Positions 1 through 9,939 of a DNA stretch of 64,000 bases are shown in pieces. Where the stretch lies: positions 1,850,808 through 1,914,807 of the forward strand of contig NZ_JARRAG010000001.1 in NCBI RefSeq assembly GCF_029589435.1, read 5' to 3'. Numbering within the stretch: the stretch's first letter is position 1; each line of letters opens with the position of its first letter. The notes under the pieces were generated by a model. That model had not been told where the DNA came from, searched no databases, and saw only the letters and a list, made by a program, of their open reading frames with translations. The position numbers and the translations under genes were made by a program. The stretch is from Paludisphaera mucosa. GTDB taxonomy: Bacteria > Planctomycetota > Planctomycetia > Isosphaerales > Isosphaeraceae.

Positions 1-31
1 GAGCATCTCGGCCTTACGAGACCGCTCGGAG

Positions 32-724
32 CTACGGACGACGAGCAAGGCTCTCGACGCCCCGGTTGGCGGCCTCGAAGAGGCGGCGGCGAAGCAGGCC
101 TCCCGCGGCGATCAGTGCGGACGCGCCGCAGAGGACCAGGCTCGAGGGCTCGGGCACTGCGCTGACGGAGACCTTGTCGATCCCCAGGGCGCTGTCAAAG
201 AACGAGTCGTTGTCCACCGCGTTCGCGACACCGAATTCCAGCGTGTAAGATCCGCCCGACGCGATCAGGAAAGAGACCGACACCCACCCCGTCGTGCCCT
301 GAGGTCCGACGGTCGCTTCATCCGCGCTGAAGAGGGTGGCGACCAGGTTCTGCGACCCGTCGTAGAGTCGGGCGTACCCGTAGTCGTTGTTCGCGTCGTC
401 CCCGGTGTCGAAGAAGACGTCGAACGAAAGCGTTTCGCCGGCGCTCGCCTGGAAGGTCTGCGACAGGGTCGTCGCCACGTCCACTCCGAGGCCCGTCCTG
501 AGATAGCCCAGGTAGTCGAGGTCGGTCGGGAAGAAGGTCCCGCCCGTGCCCAGCGAAGAGACCGAGAACTCCGCGGTCGCCAGCGAGGGATCGTTGGCCG
601 ACCATCCCGCGAGATCCCCCGTCTCGAAGGAACCGTTGATGACCCCAGCATCGACGCGAGACGCGGTCGAGGCCGTCAGCCCGAGCGCGACGATCAGCAA
701 GACTGGATAGGAACCGAATCTCAT
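32..724 (-). CDS. PEP-CTERM sorting domain protein
   Basis: Secreted protein of 230 residues, probably delivered to the outer surface by the exosortase pathway. Residues 1-26 form a signal peptide ending near VDAG. The body opens with NGSFETGDLAGW, the usual start of jelly-roll or DUF642-like domains in this class. The C-terminus has the sorting signal: VPEPSS, a hydrophobic stretch (LVLCGASALIAAGG) and a basic tail beginning LLRRRL. A GAGGG-type ribosome site lies about 8 bases before the ATG. No exosortase gene is visible in the window. The ligand or role of the globular part is unknown. Confidence 0.85.
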   Translation of the reverse strand: MRFGSYPVLLIVALGLTASTASRVDAGVINGSFETGDLAGWSANDPSLATAEFSVSSLGTGGTFFPTDLDYLGYLRTGLGVDVATTLSQTFQASAGETLSFDVFFDTGDDANNDYGYARLYDGSQNLVATLFSADEATVGPQGTTGWVSVSFLIASGGSYTLEFGVANAVDNDSFFDSALGIDKVSVSAVPEPSSLVLCGASALIAAGGLLRRRLFEAANRGVESLARRP

Positions 725-1330
725 CGTTAAGCACCCTCGTCACATCGACTCGGCCTTGAGTCCATGATGCCCATCCCACACGGATGAGTCGGAGATCGAA
801 TAGGGGGCCGATTATTCAGTGGGTTTGAGCGAGATGCAAGAAAATAATTAATTAGGGTCCTTTTCGACTAGTCTGAAAAATTTAGTAGTTTATCCGTGCT
901 ATTCTCATGATCAGATTCGACGTGCACGGATCGACCCCAAACCGGTCGGCCCGATCTCGAACCCTCGCACCTCGCGCCTGACTCGTCCGGCCCGGTGCAG
1001 GCCGTCCGACGCGCTCAACCGATTGGGCCGTCGTCGACTCACGATCCGTGGGATCGGACGGACGAATCCTCTTCCTCGATCCCGACCTGAGCCGCCCGCA
1101 GGCCGGCAGGCCGTCCCCGGCGGACGACGGCATGGACCCCGGGTCCGACGTCGATTCGCCATTCATGCGGCGACGGTGCGGGCGGAGGCTCCTCTGGATA
1201 GGAGTATCCAGGTAAGCTGTGGGAGTTGCTCGCGACGAACGCTCCTGGGACCGCGGACGCCTCCACCTTCCGTCGAGCCGTCGGGTCTCCTCGGATCGGC
1301 GTCGAACGGTCTGTTGCTACGAGGTGACGA
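725..1330. other. intergenic region with an AT-rich core
   Basis: Divergent spacer between the PEP-CTERM gene and the DUF1549 gene. Bases about 780-905 are much richer in A and T than the surroundings (TAATTAATTA and AAATTTAGTAG runs) and probably hold promoters for one or both genes. I see no convincing coding frame, RNA gene or repeat. No sigma-54-type GG/GC box could be placed confidently. Confidence 0.5.
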
Positions 1331-4300
1331 ATGCGATTCGAGGTCCGCACCCCGGCCGGTCCTGGACGAGTCGGACCCGTCGTTCGAACTGCCGCCGGGA
1401 TCGCCCCGCTGCTCGTCGCTCTCTCGACGACGTTTCCCGTGAAAGCCGCCGACGAGTTCGAACGCGAGGTTTTCCCGATCCTTCAAAAGCATTGCCTCGC
1501 GTGCCACGGGCCCGAGAAGCGGCGCGCCGGGCTGAGGGTCGACGTCAAGAAGGTCGTGTTCGAGGCGACGGACGCCCGCGGCGCGGCGATCATCCCGGGG
1601 CGGAGCGGTGACAGCCCGATCTACCGCCTGGCGGCCGGCCTCGACGACGACGCGGTCATGCCGCCGAACGACGAAGGCAAGCCCACCCTCACCGAGCCGG
1701 AGCTGAGCGTGCTCCGCGCGTGGATCGACGCCGGGGCTCGATGGCCGGACGGCGTCGGTGGGACCGTCGAGGATCCCGGCCGGCACTGGGCTTTCCATCC
1801 GCTGCACCGTCCAGACCCACCACGAATCGAGGCGGCCGACGTCCGCAACCCGGTCGACGCATTCCTGGAGGCGCGCCTTCGCGAGAAAGGCGTTGCGCTC
1901 GCGGGGCCGGCGGACCGAAGGGCCTGGATCCGCCGGCTCTCATTCGACCTGCTCGGCCTGCCCCCGACGGTCGAGGAGGTCGACGCTTACCTGGCCGACG
2001 CCGCTCCCGACGCCGACGAACGATTGGTCGACCGGATGCTCGCCTCGCCGCGTTACGGCGAGCGTTTCGCGAGGCTCTGGCTCGACGTCGTCCATTTCGG
2101 CGAGAGCCATGGGTTCGGGATGGACCGTCCCCGCAACAACGCCTGGCCCTATCGCGACTACGTCATCAACGCCTTCAACGCCGACACGCCGTACGCCCGG
2201 TTCGTCCAGGAGCAGATCGCCGCCGACGCGCTCTTCCCCGACGAGCCCGCGAAGACGCCCGCACTGGGATTCGCCGCTGCGGGGCCCTTCAACCAAAGCG
2301 CCCTCGTCGAGCAGACCGACGGCACGGAATGCAAGAAGATCGCCCTGAACCTCGATCGCGACGACATGGCCGCCAGCGTGGCCTCGACCTTCCTGAGCCT
2401 GACCGTCCAGTGCGCCCGCTGCCACGACCACAAGTTCGACCCGATCCCGCAGACCGACTACTACCGCCTGCAAGCGGTCTTCGCCGGCGTCGGCCGCGCC
2501 GAACGCGAATACGACGCCGACCCGGAAATCGCCGCACGCCGAAAGGCGCTCGTCGCCCTGAAGGCGGTCGTCGCGAGCGGATCGGTCGTCCCGGCCGAAT
2601 CCGAGGAGGAGCGGCGACGATTGGACGAGTCGCGAGGAGCCTGGGAAGTCCGCTCGCTCTCGGGGCTCGGCAGTTGGATCACGCTCTGGCCTTCCGAAGC
2701 GAAGGCCGAGAGCGGCGCTCCGCTCGCGGTTCTGGAAGACGGTTCGATCCTGGCGAAAGGGCCGATCCCTGCGGTCGACGCGTATACGCTTACGACCGCT
2801 CCACCCGCCGGGACCAAATCGCTGCGTCTCGAAGTGCTGACCGACGATTCGCTTCCGGCCCATGGCCCCGGCCGTGCCGAGAACGGCAACCTGACCCTCA
2901 CGGAATGGAAAGCCCTCGCCGTCGCCCCGGACGGCTCGACGAAGCCCGTCGCCTTGAAGGGCCCGGCCGCCGACTTCCAGCAAGTGGACCAGAACGTCGC
3001 GCGAGCTTTCGACGGCAACGATGCGACGGGTTGGGCCGTCCATCCGGAGGTCGGCAAACCGCACTTCGCGGTCGTCGACCTCGCCGAGGACTGGGCCCCG
3101 GCGCCCGGGACGTCGTTGCGGATCGTGATGGAGCAGAAGCTCGGTCGTCAGCACGTCATCGGGCGATTCCGACTGTCAGCTTCAAGCCTGGCCCGTCCCG
3201 CAGCGGACTTCGTCTTCCCCGCTGACGTCGCCTCGGCCCTAACGACCCCCATCGGCTCTCGCACGGCCGATCAGGAGGCGACGCTCACGCGCCATCATCG
3301 CCGGGTCGACGTCGATCGGAGGCTCGGCGAGCTGCCTGCAACGAATCGAGTGTTCGCGATCGCGAGTTCCTTCCCGGCGTATCGCAACTACAAGCCGCCG
3401 GGAGAGCCCTATCCCATCCGCGTGTTGAAGCGAGGCGACGTCGGCCAGCCCGGCGACGCCGTTTCGCCCGGAGCCCTCGGCTGCATCGCGGCGGTCCCGT
3501 CGGTCTTCAACCTCGAAGCGCCAGGCGATGAGAAGGCGCGTCGCGCCGCGCTGGCCCGCTGGATCACCGATCCGGCCAACCCGCTGACCTGGCGGAGCAT
3601 GGCCAACCGCGTCTGGCAGTGGCACTTCGGCGTCGGCCTGGTCGACACGCCCAACGATTTCGGCAAGAACGGCAGCGTCCCCAGTCATCCCGAGTTGCTC
3701 GACTGGCTGGCCGCCACGCTTCGCGACGACGGCTCGCTCAAGAACCTGCATCGCCTGATCGTGACGTCCGCCGCGTATCGCCGTTCCAGCGGCGGGAGGG
3801 CCTGGCCCGAGGACTCGGACAATCGACTCCTCTCGCGGATGAACCGGCGTCGCCTGGACGCCGAGCAGGTCCGCGACGGCCTGCTGGCCGTGTCCGGGCG
3901 GCTCGATTTCAAGATGGGGGGGCCGTCGGCGAAGCAATTCGTGTACAGCGATCCCAACGTCGAGGTCTCGCCGCGGATCGACTACGTCGGCTTCGACCCC
4001 GACGCGCCCGAGTCGCTGCGGCGCGGCGTCTACCGGTTCCTCTTCCGCAACGTCTCCGACCCTTTGCTCGAGGCGTTCGACGCCGCCGACCCCTCCCTGC
4101 CGACACCCCGACGGAACTCGACGATCACGCCCCAGCAGTCGCTCTCGCTCTGGAACGGTCGCTTCGCCCTGAGGCAGTGCGAACACCTGGCCGCCCGCCT
4201 GGAGCGCGAGGCCCCCGATCTCGAAGCCCGGGTCGAGCTGGCCTGCCGCCTCGCCTGGGGACGCCCTCCGGAGGCCGGCGAACTCGCCTTGCTCCGGGGG

Positions 4301-4375
4301 CACGCCGAGCGTCACGGCCTGGCAAACGCCTGCCGACTCGTACTCAACGCCAACGACTTCCTGTTCGTCCACTGA
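1331..4375 (+). CDS. PSCyt1/DUF1549/DUF1553 planctomycete cytochrome protein
   Basis: Large exported protein of 1014 residues. A signal peptide ends near residue 40 and is followed by a heme-binding CxxCH (CLACH, residues 55-59) in a planctomycete cytochrome domain. A DUF1549 region follows (PVDAFLEARL, RLSFDLLGLPP, LWLDVVHFGES, then CARCHDHKFDPI, a second CxxCH-like motif). A middle insert resembles a carbohydrate-binding or discoidin-like domain. The C-terminal DUF1553 domain starts around residue 720 (NPLTWRSMANRVWQWHFG) and ends SLSLWNGRFA. The start has a GAGGTGA ribosome site. The next gene, 39 bases downstream, is the DUF1501 partner almost always paired with this family. The family is linked to extracellular polysaccharide degradation and electron transfer in planctomycetes; the substrate is unknown. 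Confidence 0.93.
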   Translation: MRFEVRTPAGPGRVGPVVRTAAGIAPLLVALSTTFPVKAADEFEREVFPILQKHCLACHGPEKRRAGLRVDVKKVVFEATDARGAAIIPGRSGDSPIYRLAAGLDDDAVMPPNDEGKPTLTEPELSVLRAWIDAGARWPDGVGGTVEDPGRHWAFHPLHRPDPPRIEAADVRNPVDAFLEARLREKGVALAGPADRRAWIRRLSFDLLGLPPTVEEVDAYLADAAPDADERLVDRMLASPRYGERFARLWLDVVHFGESHGFGMDRPRNNAWPYRDYVINAFNADTPYARFVQEQIAADALFPDEPAKTPALGFAAAGPFNQSALVEQTDGTECKKIALNLDRDDMAASVASTFLSLTVQCARCHDHKFDPIPQTDYYRLQAVFAGVGRAEREYDADPEIAARRKALVALKAVVASGSVVPAESEEERRRLDESRGAWEVRSLSGLGSWITLWPSEAKAESGAPLAVLEDGSILAKGPIPAVDAYTLTTAPPAGTKSLRLEVLTDDSLPAHGPGRAENGNLTLTEWKALAVAPDGSTKPVALKGPAADFQQVDQNVARAFDGNDATGWAVHPEVGKPHFAVVDLAEDWAPAPGTSLRIVMEQKLGRQHVIGRFRLSASSLARPAADFVFPADVASALTTPIGSRTADQEATLTRHHRRVDVDRRLGELPATNRVFAIASSFPAYRNYKPPGEPYPIRVLKRGDVGQPGDAVSPGALGCIAAVPSVFNLEAPGDEKARRAALARWITDPANPLTWRSMANRVWQWHFGVGLVDTPNDFGKNGSVPSHPELLDWLAATLRDDGSLKNLHRLIVTSAAYRRSSGGRAWPEDSDNRLLSRMNRRRLDAEQVRDGLLAVSGRLDFKMGGPSAKQFVYSDPNVEVSPRIDYVGFDPDAPESLRRGVYRFLFRNVSDPLLEAFDAADPSLPTPRRNSTITPQQSLSLWNGRFALRQCEHLAARLEREAPDLEARVELACRLAWGRPPEAGELALLRGHAERHGLANACRLVLNANDFLFVH

Positions 4376-4414
4376 CACCGACCCGGCCTCCCAGGCGGAT
4401 TCCAAAGGCTGAAC

Positions 4415-5860
4415 ATGAATCGATCCGCGAACGAACCGGAAACGGGACGCCACCGTCAGTCGCCGATCGGGCTGGACCGTCGGGAGTTCCTGTCGCGCTC
4501 GGCCGGGGGCTTCGGCGCGCTCGCACTCAACTGGCTGGCCCAGCGGGAGAGCGCCGCCGGGACGCATCACCGCCCCAGGGCGACGCGGGTGATCCAGCTC
4601 TTCATGCTGGGCGGAGCCAGCCAGTGCGACACCTTCGACTACAAGCCCGAGCTGATCCGTCGCCACGGCGAGTCGGTGCCGTTCACCGTCACGGGCGGGA
4701 CGGTGACCACGGCGGGGCCGGTCCTCAAGAGCCCCTGGAAGTGGGCCCGCCACGGCGAGACGGGCCGATGGGTCACCAACGCCCTCCCTCATCTCGCCGG
4801 CTGCGTCGACGACATGGCGTTCCTCTACTCGATGCACGCCCCGACCAGCGAGCACAGTGCTGCGCAGACGATGCAGGGGAGCGGGTTCGTCATCCCCGGC
4901 TTCCCCAGCGTCGGCTCGTGGGTCAGCTACGCCCTCGGGAGCGAGAGCGACGACCTTCCCGCCTTCGTCGCCCTGCCCGACCCGGTGGGGCTGCCCTGGA
5001 CGGGGAAGGCCGCGTGGACGAACGGGTTCCTGCCCGCCGTCCACCAGGGCGTCATGCTCAACCCGTCGGCCGTCGACCCGGTCCCCGACCTCTTCGCGTC
5101 CAAGAGCGCCCGCTACGTCACGGCCGAGAGCGAGCGTGAAGGCCTCGGCGAGCTTGCCGCCCTGAACCGGCTCCAGGCCGCGGCCGCGCCCGGCGATTCC
5201 CGACTCGAGGCGCGGATCGCCGGCTACGAGCTGGCCGCACGGATGCAGCTCGCCGTTCCTGACGTGCTGGAGGTTCAGGCCGAGTCTCGCGCCACGCATG
5301 CCCTGTACGGGCTCGACGACCCGCTGACCGAACCGTTCGGTCGCAACTGCCTGATCGCCCGCCGGATGGTCGAGCGCGGGGTGCGTTTCGTGCAGGTCTG
5401 GTGCGGGTCGGGCATCAACGGCGGCGCCCAGAACTGGGACAACCACGGCGACGTCACGCCCGGCTCCGATTTCGAACGCATGTGCGTCCGGTCCGACCGG
5501 CCGATCGCCGGCCTGCTCAAGGACCTGAAGGCGCGCGGGCTGCTCGACGAGACCGTCGTCCTCTGGACCACCGAGTTCGGCCGCACGCCGTACAGCCAGG
5601 GGGGCAAGGGCCGGGATCACAACGGCAACACGTTCGTCTCTTGGATGGCCGGCGGCGGCGTCAAACCGGGCGCCTCGTTCGGGGCGAGCGACGAGTTCTC
5701 ATTCCATGCCGCGGTCGATCCGATCATGTGCTACGACCAGCACGCCACGCTGCTCCACCTCCTCGGCATCGACCACCGCCAGCTCACCGTGCGACACAAC
5801 GGCGCCGATCGCCGCCTGACCGACGTGCATGGCAAGGTGCTGCACGAGATCATCGCCTAG
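4415..5860 (+). CDS. DUF1501 domain protein, Tat-exported
   Basis: A 481-residue protein of the DUF1501 family, which has a sulfatase/alkaline-phosphatase-like fold. A twin-arginine signal (LDRREFLSRSAGGFGALALNWL) sits near residues 24-45. Family landmarks are FMLGGASQCDTFDYKPEL, GNxxVSWMAGGGVKPG and a C-terminal LLHLLGIDHRQLT. TEFGRTPYSQGGKGRDHN carries the conserved Glu, Arg and His cluster. The gene lies 39 bases after the DUF1549/DUF1553 gene and is read the same way, so the two are probably co-transcribed. DUF1501 proteins accompany cytochrome partners of this type throughout the phylum; no enzymatic activity is established. Confidence 0.93.
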   Translation: MNRSANEPETGRHRQSPIGLDRREFLSRSAGGFGALALNWLAQRESAAGTHHRPRATRVIQLFMLGGASQCDTFDYKPELIRRHGESVPFTVTGGTVTTAGPVLKSPWKWARHGETGRWVTNALPHLAGCVDDMAFLYSMHAPTSEHSAAQTMQGSGFVIPGFPSVGSWVSYALGSESDDLPAFVALPDPVGLPWTGKAAWTNGFLPAVHQGVMLNPSAVDPVPDLFASKSARYVTAESEREGLGELAALNRLQAAAAPGDSRLEARIAGYELAARMQLAVPDVLEVQAESRATHALYGLDDPLTEPFGRNCLIARRMVERGVRFVQVWCGSGINGGAQNWDNHGDVTPGSDFERMCVRSDRPIAGLLKDLKARGLLDETVVLWTTEFGRTPYSQGGKGRDHNGNTFVSWMAGGGVKPGASFGASDEFSFHAAVDPIMCYDQHATLLHLLGIDHRQLTVRHNGADRRLTDVHGKVLHEIIA

Positions 5861-5876
5861 AACCGCTCGTGCGGCC

Positions 5877-5891
5877 CGGGCTGTCAGCCCG
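5877..5891. terminator. small hairpin between convergent genes
   Basis: CGGGCT / AGCCCG pair around a 3-base GTC loop in the 23-base gap between the DUF1501 gene and the oppositely read MscS gene, touching the latter's stop codon. There is no T-run on either side. It is suggestive only because of its position. Confidence 0.3.
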
Positions 5892-7347
5892 CGATCGTGG
5901 CCTTGCGGGCGAGCTGCGCCGAACGGCGCCGAACCTCCATCAAGCCGCCCAGCTCGCGGGCGAGTCGCGGCGTCTGGTCGAGAAGGGCGTTGAGGTGGTC
6001 CGTGTCGAGCACGAGCACGACGAGGTCGTCCGTCGCCGTGACCGTCACCTCGCTGACGTTCGTGCTCAGGATCGCCTGCTCCCCGAAATACTCGCCGCGC
6101 CCGATCCGAGCGATCTCCACGTCGGAGTCTTGCCGATCCCGGATCGTCAGCACGGCCTCGCCTTCGAGGATCAGGTGGAGGCCCGCCAGGCTCTCGCCTT
6201 CGGCGACGACGCGCTCGCCCCGGGCGTAAGTGCGGACGCGAGAACGAGGACCCTGGCGATCGTCGCCGACGTCCTCCTTCAGGGCGAACTGGGGGAAGTC
6301 GCGCAGCAGCCCCTCGGGGCGGACGCCGCGGCGGCGGTCCAGGTCGGCCTTGTCGAGAGAGATCTCCGTCTGCGTGGGGAAAGGGATCGTGAGGCCGTGC
6401 CGCTCGGCGGTATACCAGATGCGGGTCATGAACTCGTCGCGGACCCCGCCGAGAGCCTCTTGATTCGTCACGGTGAAGATCGCGCGATAGTTGATCGCGA
6501 AGTCTCCGTAACCGATCGTGCGGACGAGCGGGCCGGGGTCGAGCAGGACGCCGGGCGTCTCGCGCAGCGTCTCGACCAGGACCTGCTTGACCTTGTTCGG
6601 GGGGTCGTCGTACGAGAATCCGAGTTCGACGACCTCGGTGCGCATCCGCGTGGGCCGCGAGAGGTTGCTGAAAGACCCCTTGTAGAGCGCCGAGTTGGGC
6701 ACGATTCGAAGTTCGCGGGTCCCTGTCTCGATGTGCACCGAACGCCAGTTGATCTCGACGACCTTGCCGGTGACGCCGTCGACGGCGATCCAGTCGCCCA
6801 ACGACAGGGGACGCTCGAACAGGAGGACGAGGCCCGCGAACAGATTCCCCATCGGCTCCTGGAGCGCCAGGCCGATGACGATCGACCCGACGCCGAGCGC
6901 CGTGGCGAGGCGGGCCAGGTCGAAGCCCCAGACGGTCGAGAGGACGATCGCCCCGCCGATGAGCACGAGGATCGACCGGACCAGGTCGATGAACAGCTTG
7001 GGGACCCGCGACCGCCACGTTCCGGACGCCGCCGAGGCGAAGATCACGTCGTTCACGAACGAGAGTCCGGCGTGGATCGCGAAGATCCCCAGCACGGTCT
7101 CCACGATCCGCAGCGTCCACGAATCGGGGGCGAATTCCAGCACGCGCGAGAGCAGTCTCTCGACGGCCACGACGGGGAGTATCAGGTCGCGGACGATCCG
7201 GAGGGTCGAGGCGAGGGGGCGGCGGCGACGGTGCAGGCGATGGATCAACTCGCTGAGCACCACGACGGCGATCGGGAAGCCGATCACGAGCGCCAGCCCC
7301 CAGAGCATCGGGGGCGAAGCCTGCAGCGCCTGGAATTCCTCGCTCAT
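5884..7347 (-). CDS. MscS-family channel with C-terminal cyclic-nucleotide-binding-like domain
   Basis: Inner-membrane protein of 487 residues. Several hydrophobic helices occupy the first 170 residues. The MscS pore and beta domain follow (LGVGSIVIGLALQEPMGNLFAGL, then DWIAVDGVTGKVVEINWRSV and the NSALYKG element). A cyclic-nucleotide-binding fold covers roughly residues 355-470. This is the bCNG-type architecture. The phosphate-binding cassette keeps F421-G-E423 but has VSEVTVTA where the Arg that contacts the cyclic phosphate normally sits, so classical cAMP/cGMP binding is doubtful. The gene begins 37 bases after the cyclase-fold gene on the same strand, which suggests an operon. A GAGGA site precedes the ATG. 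Confidence 0.9.
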   Translation of the reverse strand: MSEEFQALQASPPMLWGLALVIGFPIAVVVLSELIHRLHRRRRPLASTLRIVRDLILPVVAVERLLSRVLEFAPDSWTLRIVETVLGIFAIHAGLSFVNDVIFASAASGTWRSRVPKLFIDLVRSILVLIGGAIVLSTVWGFDLARLATALGVGSIVIGLALQEPMGNLFAGLVLLFERPLSLGDWIAVDGVTGKVVEINWRSVHIETGTRELRIVPNSALYKGSFSNLSRPTRMRTEVVELGFSYDDPPNKVKQVLVETLRETPGVLLDPGPLVRTIGYGDFAINYRAIFTVTNQEALGGVRDEFMTRIWYTAERHGLTIPFPTQTEISLDKADLDRRRGVRPEGLLRDFPQFALKEDVGDDRQGPRSRVRTYARGERVVAEGESLAGLHLILEGEAVLTIRDRQDSDVEIARIGRGEYFGEQAILSTNVSEVTVTATDDLVVLVLDTDHLNALLDQTPRLARELGGLMEVRRRSAQLARKATIAG

Positions 7348-7384
7348 GCGAGAGTCCTCGACGGGTGTGATAGGGGCGCGGCGG

Positions 7385-9652
7385 CTAGAATTTCACCCTC
7401 CAGACGGGAAGCATGCCCTTGGCCGAGAGTTCGAGCTCGCCGAGCGGCTCGAATTCCTGGAGGTCTCCCAGGCGGTCCCGGACGTCGCGCGTGACCTGGA
7501 TGGAGTTGGCGTCGCCCTTGGCGATCAGGCCCTGGGCGATGACGACGGTGTCGCCCCACAGGTCGTAGATGAACTTGTTCATGCCGACCACACCGCCGAC
7601 GACCGGTCCCGAGTTGACCGCGATGCTCAGGGTCAGGCCGGGGAGGCGGTCCTTGTTGAACCGGCGCACGATCCGGAGCATGTCCTTCGCGAACTCGACG
7701 ACCCGGTTCGTGTGATCCGGCCGCTGCACGGAAAGTCCGCAGACGGCCATGTACGACTCGCCGACGGTTTTGACCTTCTCGACGCCGTGCTTCTCCGCCG
7801 CCTCGTCGAACGCGATGACCAGCTCGTTGAGGAGTCCCAGGGTCTCGTCGGCGGGTTTGCCGTCGAGGGTCTCCGAGAGCCCGTGCATGCGGGCGAAGAG
7901 GACGGTCACGTCGGCGAAGTTTTCGGAGAACTGCTTCTCGCCCTCCTTCCGGCGCTTGACGGCGGAGGAGGGGAGGATGTTGAGGAGCAGCTCCTCGTTC
8001 TCGCGGACCTTCTGGTCGATCAGCTCGTTCTTGGCCTTGAGGTTGCTGGTCATGCGGTTGAACGCCTCGGCCAGCTCGTGGAACTCGTCGCGGCTGCGGA
8101 CCTTCACCTTCACGTCGACCTGCCCCTCGCTCACGCGCCGGGCGCCCCGGGTGAGCTGACGGAGCGGACGCGTGAAGATCCGCGAGAACATCAACGCCAG
8201 CAGGGACACTACGAGGACGATCGCCACGGCCGTCGTGATCAGCCAACGCTGGAACCGTCGGACGGGTTCCAGGGCTTCGTCCATGTCCATCTTGGCGACG
8301 ACGGCCCAGCGGTTCTTCTCGCCGCCGATGAGCCCAGGCAGCTCGATCGGCGTGAAGCTGGCGAGCGTCGGCACGCCGCGGTAGTCGCGCTGGCTCACCG
8401 TGCCGGTGATCCCCGACGTCCCCAGGCGAGCGGCCTCGGATTCGACGCGCAGGCTCAGCACCGACGTCCCCGAGCGCCGGATCATGGCGATCCCCTGTTC
8501 GGTCGTCCCGGCGTCGCGAAGCTTGTCGAGGAACCGCTCCAGGCCGGCCTCGCGTCGCTTGGCGACCTCGGCCACGGGTAGAGGCTTGCCGTCGGGGCCG
8601 GAGGTCTCGACCGCCTGGATCTCCCAGATTTCGCGAGATCGCGACCTCATATAATGATCCGCGCCCACGAGGTAGGCCTCGCCGGTGCTCCCGAGGCCTT
8701 CCCTCCGCCAGCCCTCGTCGCCGGTCAGGATCCGGCTGAACTGGTCGATGGGGAACTTCAGCACGAGGACGCCGATCATCTTGTTGTCGTCGAAGATCGG
8801 GCTGCCGATGAAGGAAGTCGGCAAGTTGCCGTTGGGCCGATAGCGCTGGAAGTCGACGAGCCGGAAGTCGTCGCGGTCCATGCCCTTCTGGATCGCCCGG
8901 AACAGCTCGCCCAGGTTGGAGTTGGCATAGGGGCCGGTGAGCAAGTTGGTGGCGAACTCCACCGACTTCTGCTCGCTGTAGACGACCTCGCCCGACTTCG
9001 AGTCGATCAGCACCACGTCGTCGAATCCGAGATTCTCGCGAATGAGGCGGAAGTAGGGATGGAACCGCTTGTGCGCGGCATCGTAGGGGCTGCCGTCTCC
9101 CGAAGAGTCGAGCTTATGCTTCAGGCGGTAAGGCGACGGGTTCCGGGCGAGATACTGATACTGCAGGTAACGAGAGGCCACGATCCGGGGCACGTAATTC
9201 TCGAGGACCGGATCGGCGTCGAGGCTGGACTTCAGGAGCGGCAGGAAATCGTCGCGATAGAACGCCGTGAGCTTGTCGTCCCATTCCGGCGGGATGGGTG
9301 AGTCGTTCAGATCGTCGAACCCCGCGATGTAGGACTTCATCGCCGTCACGAAGGTCTCGTCGGCCGAGAGCGAGATCACCTGGCCGCGGATCTGCTGCAA
9401 GCGGTCGACGACCAGCGTCGTCTTGATCCGGCAGACGCCCGCGAGCTGATTGCGGACGGCGCCGATCACCGCCTCCCGGCCGCTGAAGTAGCCGATCCCC
9501 GCGACGACGAACATCGACGCGATGCTGACTCCCAGGAGGATGAGCAGGAGCTTGGACTGGATCGAGAGGCGATGGAAGGGGGTCGTCAAGGTCGCGTCGT
9601 CCTTGGAGTTGCGGCCGTCCGCCCCGCGAGCGACATCGTCGTCGCCCGCCAT
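7385..9652 (-). CDS. Cache-HAMP-class III cyclase-fold sensor, probably catalytically inactive
   Basis: Membrane sensor of about 755 residues. TM1 is near residues 30-55, a long periplasmic dCache-like domain extends to about residue 465, TM2 follows (WLITTAVAIVLVVSLLALMF), then HAMP (PLRQLTRGARRVSEG) and a class III nucleotide cyclase fold from about 575. Compared with Rv1625c-type cyclases, the first metal Asp is Arg588 (FARMHG for FADIVG) and the second metal Asp is Glu632 (VGESYM). The transition-state Asn is Val704 and Arg is Gly708 (GDTVVIAQG). The adenine-selecting Lys and Asp are kept. Catalysis is therefore unlikely, while nucleotide binding may remain. A GTG start at 9673 is an alternative; neither has a strong ribosome site. 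The MscS channel gene follows directly. Confidence 0.85.
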   Translation of the reverse strand: MAGDDDVARGADGRNSKDDATLTTPFHRLSIQSKLLLILLGVSIASMFVVAGIGYFSGREAVIGAVRNQLAGVCRIKTTLVVDRLQQIRGQVISLSADETFVTAMKSYIAGFDDLNDSPIPPEWDDKLTAFYRDDFLPLLKSSLDADPVLENYVPRIVASRYLQYQYLARNPSPYRLKHKLDSSGDGSPYDAAHKRFHPYFRLIRENLGFDDVVLIDSKSGEVVYSEQKSVEFATNLLTGPYANSNLGELFRAIQKGMDRDDFRLVDFQRYRPNGNLPTSFIGSPIFDDNKMIGVLVLKFPIDQFSRILTGDEGWRREGLGSTGEAYLVGADHYMRSRSREIWEIQAVETSGPDGKPLPVAEVAKRREAGLERFLDKLRDAGTTEQGIAMIRRSGTSVLSLRVESEAARLGTSGITGTVSQRDYRGVPTLASFTPIELPGLIGGEKNRWAVVAKMDMDEALEPVRRFQRWLITTAVAIVLVVSLLALMFSRIFTRPLRQLTRGARRVSEGQVDVKVKVRSRDEFHELAEAFNRMTSNLKAKNELIDQKVRENEELLLNILPSSAVKRRKEGEKQFSENFADVTVLFARMHGLSETLDGKPADETLGLLNELVIAFDEAAEKHGVEKVKTVGESYMAVCGLSVQRPDHTNRVVEFAKDMLRIVRRFNKDRLPGLTLSIAVNSGPVVGGVVGMNKFIYDLWGDTVVIAQGLIAKGDANSIQVTRDVRDRLGDLQEFEPLGELELSAKGMLPVWRVKF

Positions 9653-9939
9653 GCATGGAGGGTTTCGGGTCACACCAGAGTAGCCGCTCGGGGCGTCCCG
9701 TCAATCGGTGGCCTCTCGAGCGCACTCGAATCGGAATCGAGGCCTGGCCCGGCGCGGATCGTCGGCGAGATTCGATCCAACTCCTTTCTGGTCTTCGTGC
9801 GGGCGTCCCGAACGGGTTTTTGATCGGGTTTTGCCGTTTGTACCGGATTCTCAAGGCCGTTGCGGCCGATATCGAGAAGCGCGGTCCGCGAGCGGACGGC
9901 CGTGCTCCGGGTGGCTTCAGGTTTTGCGACGAGGGTGGA

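Follow-up and report, generated by a model that had tools for sequence, protein, structure and literature searches.

The window, by which we mean the whole 64,000-nucleotide stretch of DNA that was analysed, carries on its minus strand two adjacent genes, one for a predicted receptor and one for a predicted channel. The upstream gene (7385..9652, minus strand) encodes a Cache-HAMP-pseudocyclase of 755 residues, defined by its ORF, by its Pfam domains and by the recurrence of the gene pair at 20 other loci. The frame holds no internal stop, and the protein would have 762 residues if an in-frame GTG at 9673 is the start. A Cache-type region stands between two membrane helices at the N-terminal end of the protein; a HAMP domain comes next, and a helical linker joins it to the class III cyclase fold. 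The extracytoplasmic Cache-type sensor region, at about residues 60-465 (8258..9475, minus strand), lies between two long helices in the structural model and matches dCache_1 with 29.4 bits in the window protein (Pfam cut-off 45) and with 41.7 and 48.8 bits in relatives, all seven members of our first alignment being matched at E ≤ 0.001. The HAMP domain follows at residues 489-539 (8036..8188, minus strand; PF00672, 57.4 bits against a cut-off of 25). The cyclase-fold domain, whose catalytic residues are lost, spans residues 577-750 (7403..7924, minus strand); it is supported by Foldseek matches to class III cyclases and by Guanylate_cyc (PF00211), which scores 125.1 bits in the window protein against a cut-off of 21.9 and matches all seven aligned sensor members. 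No named HMMER or NCBIfam family for this cyclase-fold part of the window protein was among the matches listed, and the predicted structures, which were built on seven sequences, are of poor quality just where the active site used to be. Genes neighbouring the pair in the window carry PSCyt and PSD domains by Pfam.

Directly downstream, on the same strand and across a gap of 37 bp given by the ORF coordinates (7348..7384, minus strand), lies the gene for an MscS-type channel of 487 residues with a C-terminal CNBD (5884..7347, minus strand), identified by PF00924 (73.9 bits), PF00027 (58.2 bits) and Foldseek matches to MscS channels. Both Pfam domains, MscS core and then CNBD, were found in all seven aligned channel members. 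The CNBD itself (residues 372-458; 5974..6234, minus strand) is matched by PF00027 and adopts the CNBD fold in the model, which compares with solved CNBDs at a best Z of 16.9 (rmsd 2.4 over 132 aligned residues). HMMER alignment with the cGMP-dependent kinase, together with the codons, places Ser432-Glu433 (6049..6054, minus strand) where cAMP-binding CNBDs have an Arg and then a small or polar residue. The phosphate-binding Arg of the window channel is replaced by Ser432, Glu433 comes next, and the Gly-Glu motif is kept. This loss of the cyclic-phosphate Arg was missed by the first-pass annotation of the same DNA, which had mentioned MscS and left the CNBD unnamed.

That annotation had described the upstream protein as a cyclase-fold sensor stripped of its catalytic residues, reading Arg588, Glu632, Val704 and Gly708 in place of the two metal-binding Asp residues and the transition-state Asn and Arg, with the adenine-selecting Lys and Asp still present. 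We set the residue positions by HMMER alignment with adenylyl cyclase 9 and checked all six codons, and every one of these assignments was confirmed. Arg588 (7889..7891) occupies the first C1 metal Asp column (LFADIVGF/LFARMHGL) and Glu632 (7757..7759) the second (LGDCYY/VGESYM); Val704 (7541..7543) and Gly708 (7529..7531) stand in the C2 Asn and C2 Arg columns (TVNIASRM/TVVIAQGL); and Lys628 (7769..7771) and Asp697 (7562..7564) retain the identities of the C2 Lys (EKIKTIG/EKVKTVG) and C2 Asp columns (YDIWGD/YDLWGD), all six codons lying on the minus strand. The accessible part of PMC4174876 gives the catalytic residues of Rv1625c, with their roles, as Asp256, Asp300, Lys296, Asp365, Asn372 and Arg376, and the accessible part of PMC13001267 deals with other cyclases.

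The same method, applied to 47 class III domains that do not belong to the family, among them 27 of the same order, gives D,D,N,R in all 47 at the columns where the window gene has R,E,V,G. Because a single procedure returned the canonical residues in every one of these domains, the altered set in the window protein is not a chance of alignment. The controls were a selection of the PF00211 matches, namely the top locus of each genome plus several more; 18 of them built the alignment model, and two fragments and eight duplicate loci were excluded. Lys and Asp both remain at all seven loci of the window's order. Their retention had been taken to predict nucleotide binding, and as proof of binding we set it aside as too weak, about 27% of the domain's columns being invariant in the same seven sequences.

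The sensor-channel pair, in the same fixed order, was found at 21 loci in 20 of the 397 genomes of the class examined. At all 21 loci where both genes are visible the cyclase lies upstream of the channel on the same strand, with intergenic gaps of 12-133 bp at the 18 loci where they could be measured. The window's genome (G000) has a second copy of the pair at G000:C1:570-574 kb, and neither sensor nor channel was found in its five congeners. Across the window's order the channel is present in six of 45 genomes, at seven loci that all have the cyclase directly upstream. The idea that the module is a feature of this one order proved wrong. When the 397 genomes were searched with a channel profile, the search added 14 pairs, in the form of 14 further channels above 470 bits that each have a Cache-HAMP-pseudocyclase directly upstream on the same strand, together with one truncated channel (G543, 401 bits) whose partner position falls off the contig. 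In G746 the sensor is present, with the same residue losses, and it is the channel side that falls off the contig. Among the distant loci compared, no conserved gene is held in common besides the sensor and the channel.

Outside the class, draws of 392 genomes from the phylum gave no pair at the thresholds used; most other sensor-profile matches there were the Cache or Cache-HAMP parts of chemoreceptors and kinases, or lone cyclase domains. These draws held one similar channel outside the class, L171 in G227 (484 bits), which has an intact Arg, no cyclase in 17 kb and a RecG-like upstream neighbour. A direct search of bacterial genomes with the window protein, which was pattern-based and missed true relatives later recovered by profile, returned seven loci with cyclase or GGDEF relatives of other architecture and no pair. 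Searching plasmids with the channel gave no match covering 80%, and the one Rhizobium channel match that we examined adjoins an ABC operon, with no cyclase annotated. As a separate observation, G010 carries seven extra Cache-HAMP-pseudocyclases with no adjoining channel, five in tandem on one contig and two on another (L040:15640-17754, L041 with four ORFs at 2-9280, L042:8152-10263 and L043:7253-9202); the adenine-selecting Lys is lost in all seven, and all seven form one group. At L181:7692-10903 (G382), two MscS-CNBD channel genes stand next to each other, with Arg in both.

The catalytic losses of the window protein recur among its homologues beside MscS genes, at 21 of 21 loci. The first metal position holds Glu at 13 loci, Asp at three, Ser and Ala at two each and Arg at one, and the second holds Glu at three, Gly, Ala or Ser at 18, and Asp at none. 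The transition-state Asn is kept in four of the 21 and the Arg in eight, never in the same row, and several of the Arg-less pseudocyclases have a basic residue one place earlier. At the adenine-selecting positions we read Lys in 14, Arg in six and Gly in one, and Asp in 18 and Glu in three. No copy has both metal Asp residues, and none has the complete catalytic set, in keeping with the first-pass prediction that the domain would not cyclise; on these readings, we strongly infer that cyclase activity has been lost. Other residues have become newly fixed in the pseudocyclases when compared with 15 intact relatives, namely Ser641 (21/21 versus 0/15), Gly686 (21/21 versus 1/15) and Arg650 (21/21 versus 2/15). 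High variability of the first metal column had also been considered as a sign of release and was dropped, the column being at least as variable as 96% of columns over seven rows and more variable than only 54% over 21.

At the receiving end, only one of the 21 module channels, L253, still has the CNBD Arg; the other 20 have lost it, and an acidic residue comes right after this position in 19 of 21. Other MscS-CNBDs, represented by a subset of the lower-scoring channel matches, have the Arg in 36 of 36 and an acid directly after it in 0 of 36. The ribose-contacting Glu of the module CNBDs is Glu in 13, Asp in six and Ser in two. With the cyclic-phosphate Arg of the channel CNBD lost, the output would therefore not be cAMP at the receiving end either, and we infer that cAMP gating of the channel is absent. 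Intact pairs were found as well: a class III cyclase lies no more than 1.6 kb from six of these other MscS-CNBDs (L178, L180, L192, L193, L199 and L259), and in all six the cyclase reads D,D,N,R and the CNBD has its Arg. A cyclase beside an MscS-CNBD is therefore a recurring arrangement, and in the module both ends have changed together.

The 21 module channels form one clade (support 100/99) with L171 as its sister, and the 19 pseudocyclases of the sensor tree, from which two partial sequences were excluded, are set apart by a single branch with support 100/100. The two trees share four groupings, (L040,(L047,L044)), (L249,L254), (L243,(L251,L252)) and L253 with L244, L245 and L246, so the two genes were mostly inherited together; the placement of L048 is unsettled in the cyclase tree. 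Because inheritance was shared, the co-loss on cyclase and channel is to be counted as one event and one observation, not as 21 independent ones, and the losses look like a single event on the stem.

The last 190 residues of the sensor, which make up the cyclase domain, gave dN/dS values of 0.040, 0.071, 0.143, 0.145, 0.155 and 0.162 in six of seven close pairs, the seventh comparison being saturated, and in L044 versus L047 this domain has a pN of 0.162 against a pS of 0.748. The first-pass annotation had proposed that the Cache-HAMP input drives a conformational output instead of cAMP. The part of this proposal that excludes cyclisation stood, and the non-enzymatic output gains indirect support because the cyclase-fold domain appears to stay under purifying selection. 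For the window gene itself, dN/dS against relatives was 0.38-0.63 where computable, with synonymous divergence that is depressed by codon bias or saturated, and we read neither relaxation nor constraint from a ratio in which synonymous change looks depressed. Within the channel, the CNBD evolves faster than the remaining protein in two of three pairs. Two of the 21 sensor genes contain in-frame stops, one in L244 and two in L248. In the comparison of L044 with L047, neighbouring genes are 77-96% identical where compared, but the sensors are 72% and the channels 75% identical, so that the module apparently changes more quickly than the genes around it.

We also considered where cAMP might come from in the window's genome. 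G000 has two PF00211 genes, both of them module members, and in G016 all PF00211 matches are likewise module members; a search of G000 for a class I cyclase gave no match. cAMP may nevertheless exist in the cell, because a CYTH protein at L203:1459-2028 (G000:C2) exceeds the cut-off of the class IV adenylate cyclase model cyaB (95.5 bits against 57.95). This protein is the only candidate cAMP source found in G000. Judged by its residues, the module is without a plausible cAMP source and without a plausible cAMP receptor. The phosphate-site Arg is absent, by eye, from three other CNBD proteins of this genome, L061 (G000:C1, 563 kb), L062 and L063. One of them, encoded about 7 kb away from the second copy of the module, is a fusion of a CNBD with a thioredoxin-reductase-like protein.

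The picture that we favour is of a retained sensor-channel module, apparently past cAMP, rather than of one decayed enzyme. We lean, if narrowly, towards a receptor-channel module made from cAMP-signalling parts in which cAMP is no longer used and the cyclase fold serves as a conformational transducer gating the channel. More tentatively, and doubting it a little more than we believe it, we suggest that a second-messenger cascade has collapsed into two proteins, a dead-cyclase receptor directly gating an MscS-type channel through a CNBD that does not bind cyclic nucleotides. Such a module would have descended from, or been assembled out of, cAMP-signalling parts. Its Cache domain would sense something outside the inner membrane, and the HAMP domain would pass the signal on to a cyclase-fold dimer that, unable to cyclise ATP, would act as the conformational transducer; a bound adenine nucleotide might set its state. 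The transducer would then touch and gate the co-encoded MscS channel, with the CNBD-derived cytoplasmic domain as the docking or gating piece. Direct contact between pseudocyclase and channel, and the effect of that contact on the channel, are our best guess.

The main rival, which we consider unlikely, keeps a chemical link and dispenses with contact: the CNBD would bind some other small molecule, such as a nucleoside or a non-cyclic nucleotide, and the pseudocyclase would sense or present the same ligand. CNBDs that lack the Arg can change ligand, as in the trypanosome PKA, where the accessible part of PMC10959531 describes the Arg giving way to polar residues, an acid filling its space and nucleosides being bound. 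The module offers a parallel in the fixed acid that adjoins the former Arg position in 19 of 21 channels and in the ribose-contacting position, with its 13 Glu, six Asp and two Ser. The trypanosomatid PKA regulatory subunit resembles the module channel in having a CNBD without the phosphate Arg, and is, in the same part of that source, unresponsive to cAMP; it differs in being a kinase subunit with a compensating Glu elsewhere and an identified ligand (PMC10959531, accessible part). Against a change of ligand in the module, its acid sits at a position other than the trypanosome one, the Gly-Glu motif is eroded in eight of 21 channels, and the module contains no ligand-making enzyme.

We regard it as improbable that the sensor remains an enzyme in heteromeric or altered form, sharing a half-site with another cyclase or using Glu in place of Asp, and that some nucleotide product is still made. 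Mammalian adenylyl cyclases divide their catalytic residues between two domains, which gives the heteromeric version a precedent, and G015, G027 and G036 each have another class III protein reading D,D,N,R. The altered version can point to the second G000 copy, which reads E,E,N,S, with Glu at both metal positions and the Asn kept. However, G000 and G016 have no PF00211 match other than their module members, and pairing the two G000 copies either way leaves the site incomplete. In 18 of 21 members Gly, Ala or Ser stands in place of the second metal Asp, and the receiving CNBD is without its Arg. A heterodimer with a second cyclase in G000 and G016 was ruled out on the genes found. The further PF00211 matches of G010 are its array copies.

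Just as doubtful, to our minds, is a channel that responds to tension alone, with the CNBD-like and cyclase-like domains as passive scaffolds, for example for assembly or clustering, and no signalling. MscS channels do gate by tension unaided, but a conserved Cache-HAMP receptor is kept with this channel when no other conserved gene is common to the distant loci compared, which argues for a signal. Decay, in which a once-active cAMP module is being lost and its residues have drifted, is very improbable and already hard to hold for the clade: the patchy spread (present in six of the order's 45 genomes and absent from all five congeners), the in-frame stops in two of 21 sensor genes, the high pairwise dN/dS of the window copy and metal columns of about average variability over 21 rows would fit it, but the low dN/dS in close relatives, the occurrence of 21 loci over several families, the new invariant residues and the fixation of the Arg loss in nearly all channels speak against it.

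Bacterial cyclic-nucleotide-gated (bCNG) channels, credited to work by Caldwell in 2010 and Malcolm in 2012, reportedly consist of an MscS core and a CNBD. The module channel is like them in having the MscS core and the C-terminal CNBD, and unlike them in that the Arg is gone in 20 of 21 copies and the adjoining cyclase lacks the full catalytic set in 21 of 21; relatives from other parts of the phylum retain the Arg, with an intact cyclase within 1.6 kb in six fetched examples. With Rv1625c and the mammalian class III adenylyl cyclases the sensor shares the fold, the Lys/Asp pair of the window copy, the helical linker and the HAMP input, whereas no module copy has both metal Asp residues or the full set. 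The parts are known and the pairing is known; it is the state of both partners that is new. In the open literature, outside which lie subscription papers such as the original bCNG work, we found no description of an Arg-less MscS-CNBD channel partnered by a catalytically dead cyclase.

Among kinases, pseudo-enzymes are a familiar phenomenon. If our preferred reading of a directly coupled receptor and channel is true, the module shows a diffusible-messenger pathway turning into direct coupling, its two partners without chemistry and yet linked, and would amount to a receptor-operated bacterial channel built from cAMP-signalling parts with the messenger gone. It would also provide an opening on the long-standing question of the non-tension cues of MscS-family channels with added cytoplasmic domains. 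For annotation, it serves as a warning that an 'adenylate/guanylate cyclase' adjoining a 'cyclic nucleotide-gated channel' need not mean cAMP.

The module is small, was found in 20 genomes and has an intact Sinorhizobium relative for comparison. This protein, L240 of the Sinorhizobium meliloti megaplasmid pSymA, is the nearest intact sensor relative found and matches the window protein in end-to-end architecture, with 37% identity over 94% of the window protein. It differs in that its catalytic and adenine-selecting residues are intact (D,D,N,R,K,D) and in that no MscS-CNBD was found in the 14 kb fetched around it. With tblastn, proteins of the L240 type were found in 20 records of rhizobial plasmids; in 19 the match spans 80% or more of the query, and the residues were read in one. 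Intact Cache-HAMP-cyclases like L240 on rhizobial megaplasmids offer a ready active control.
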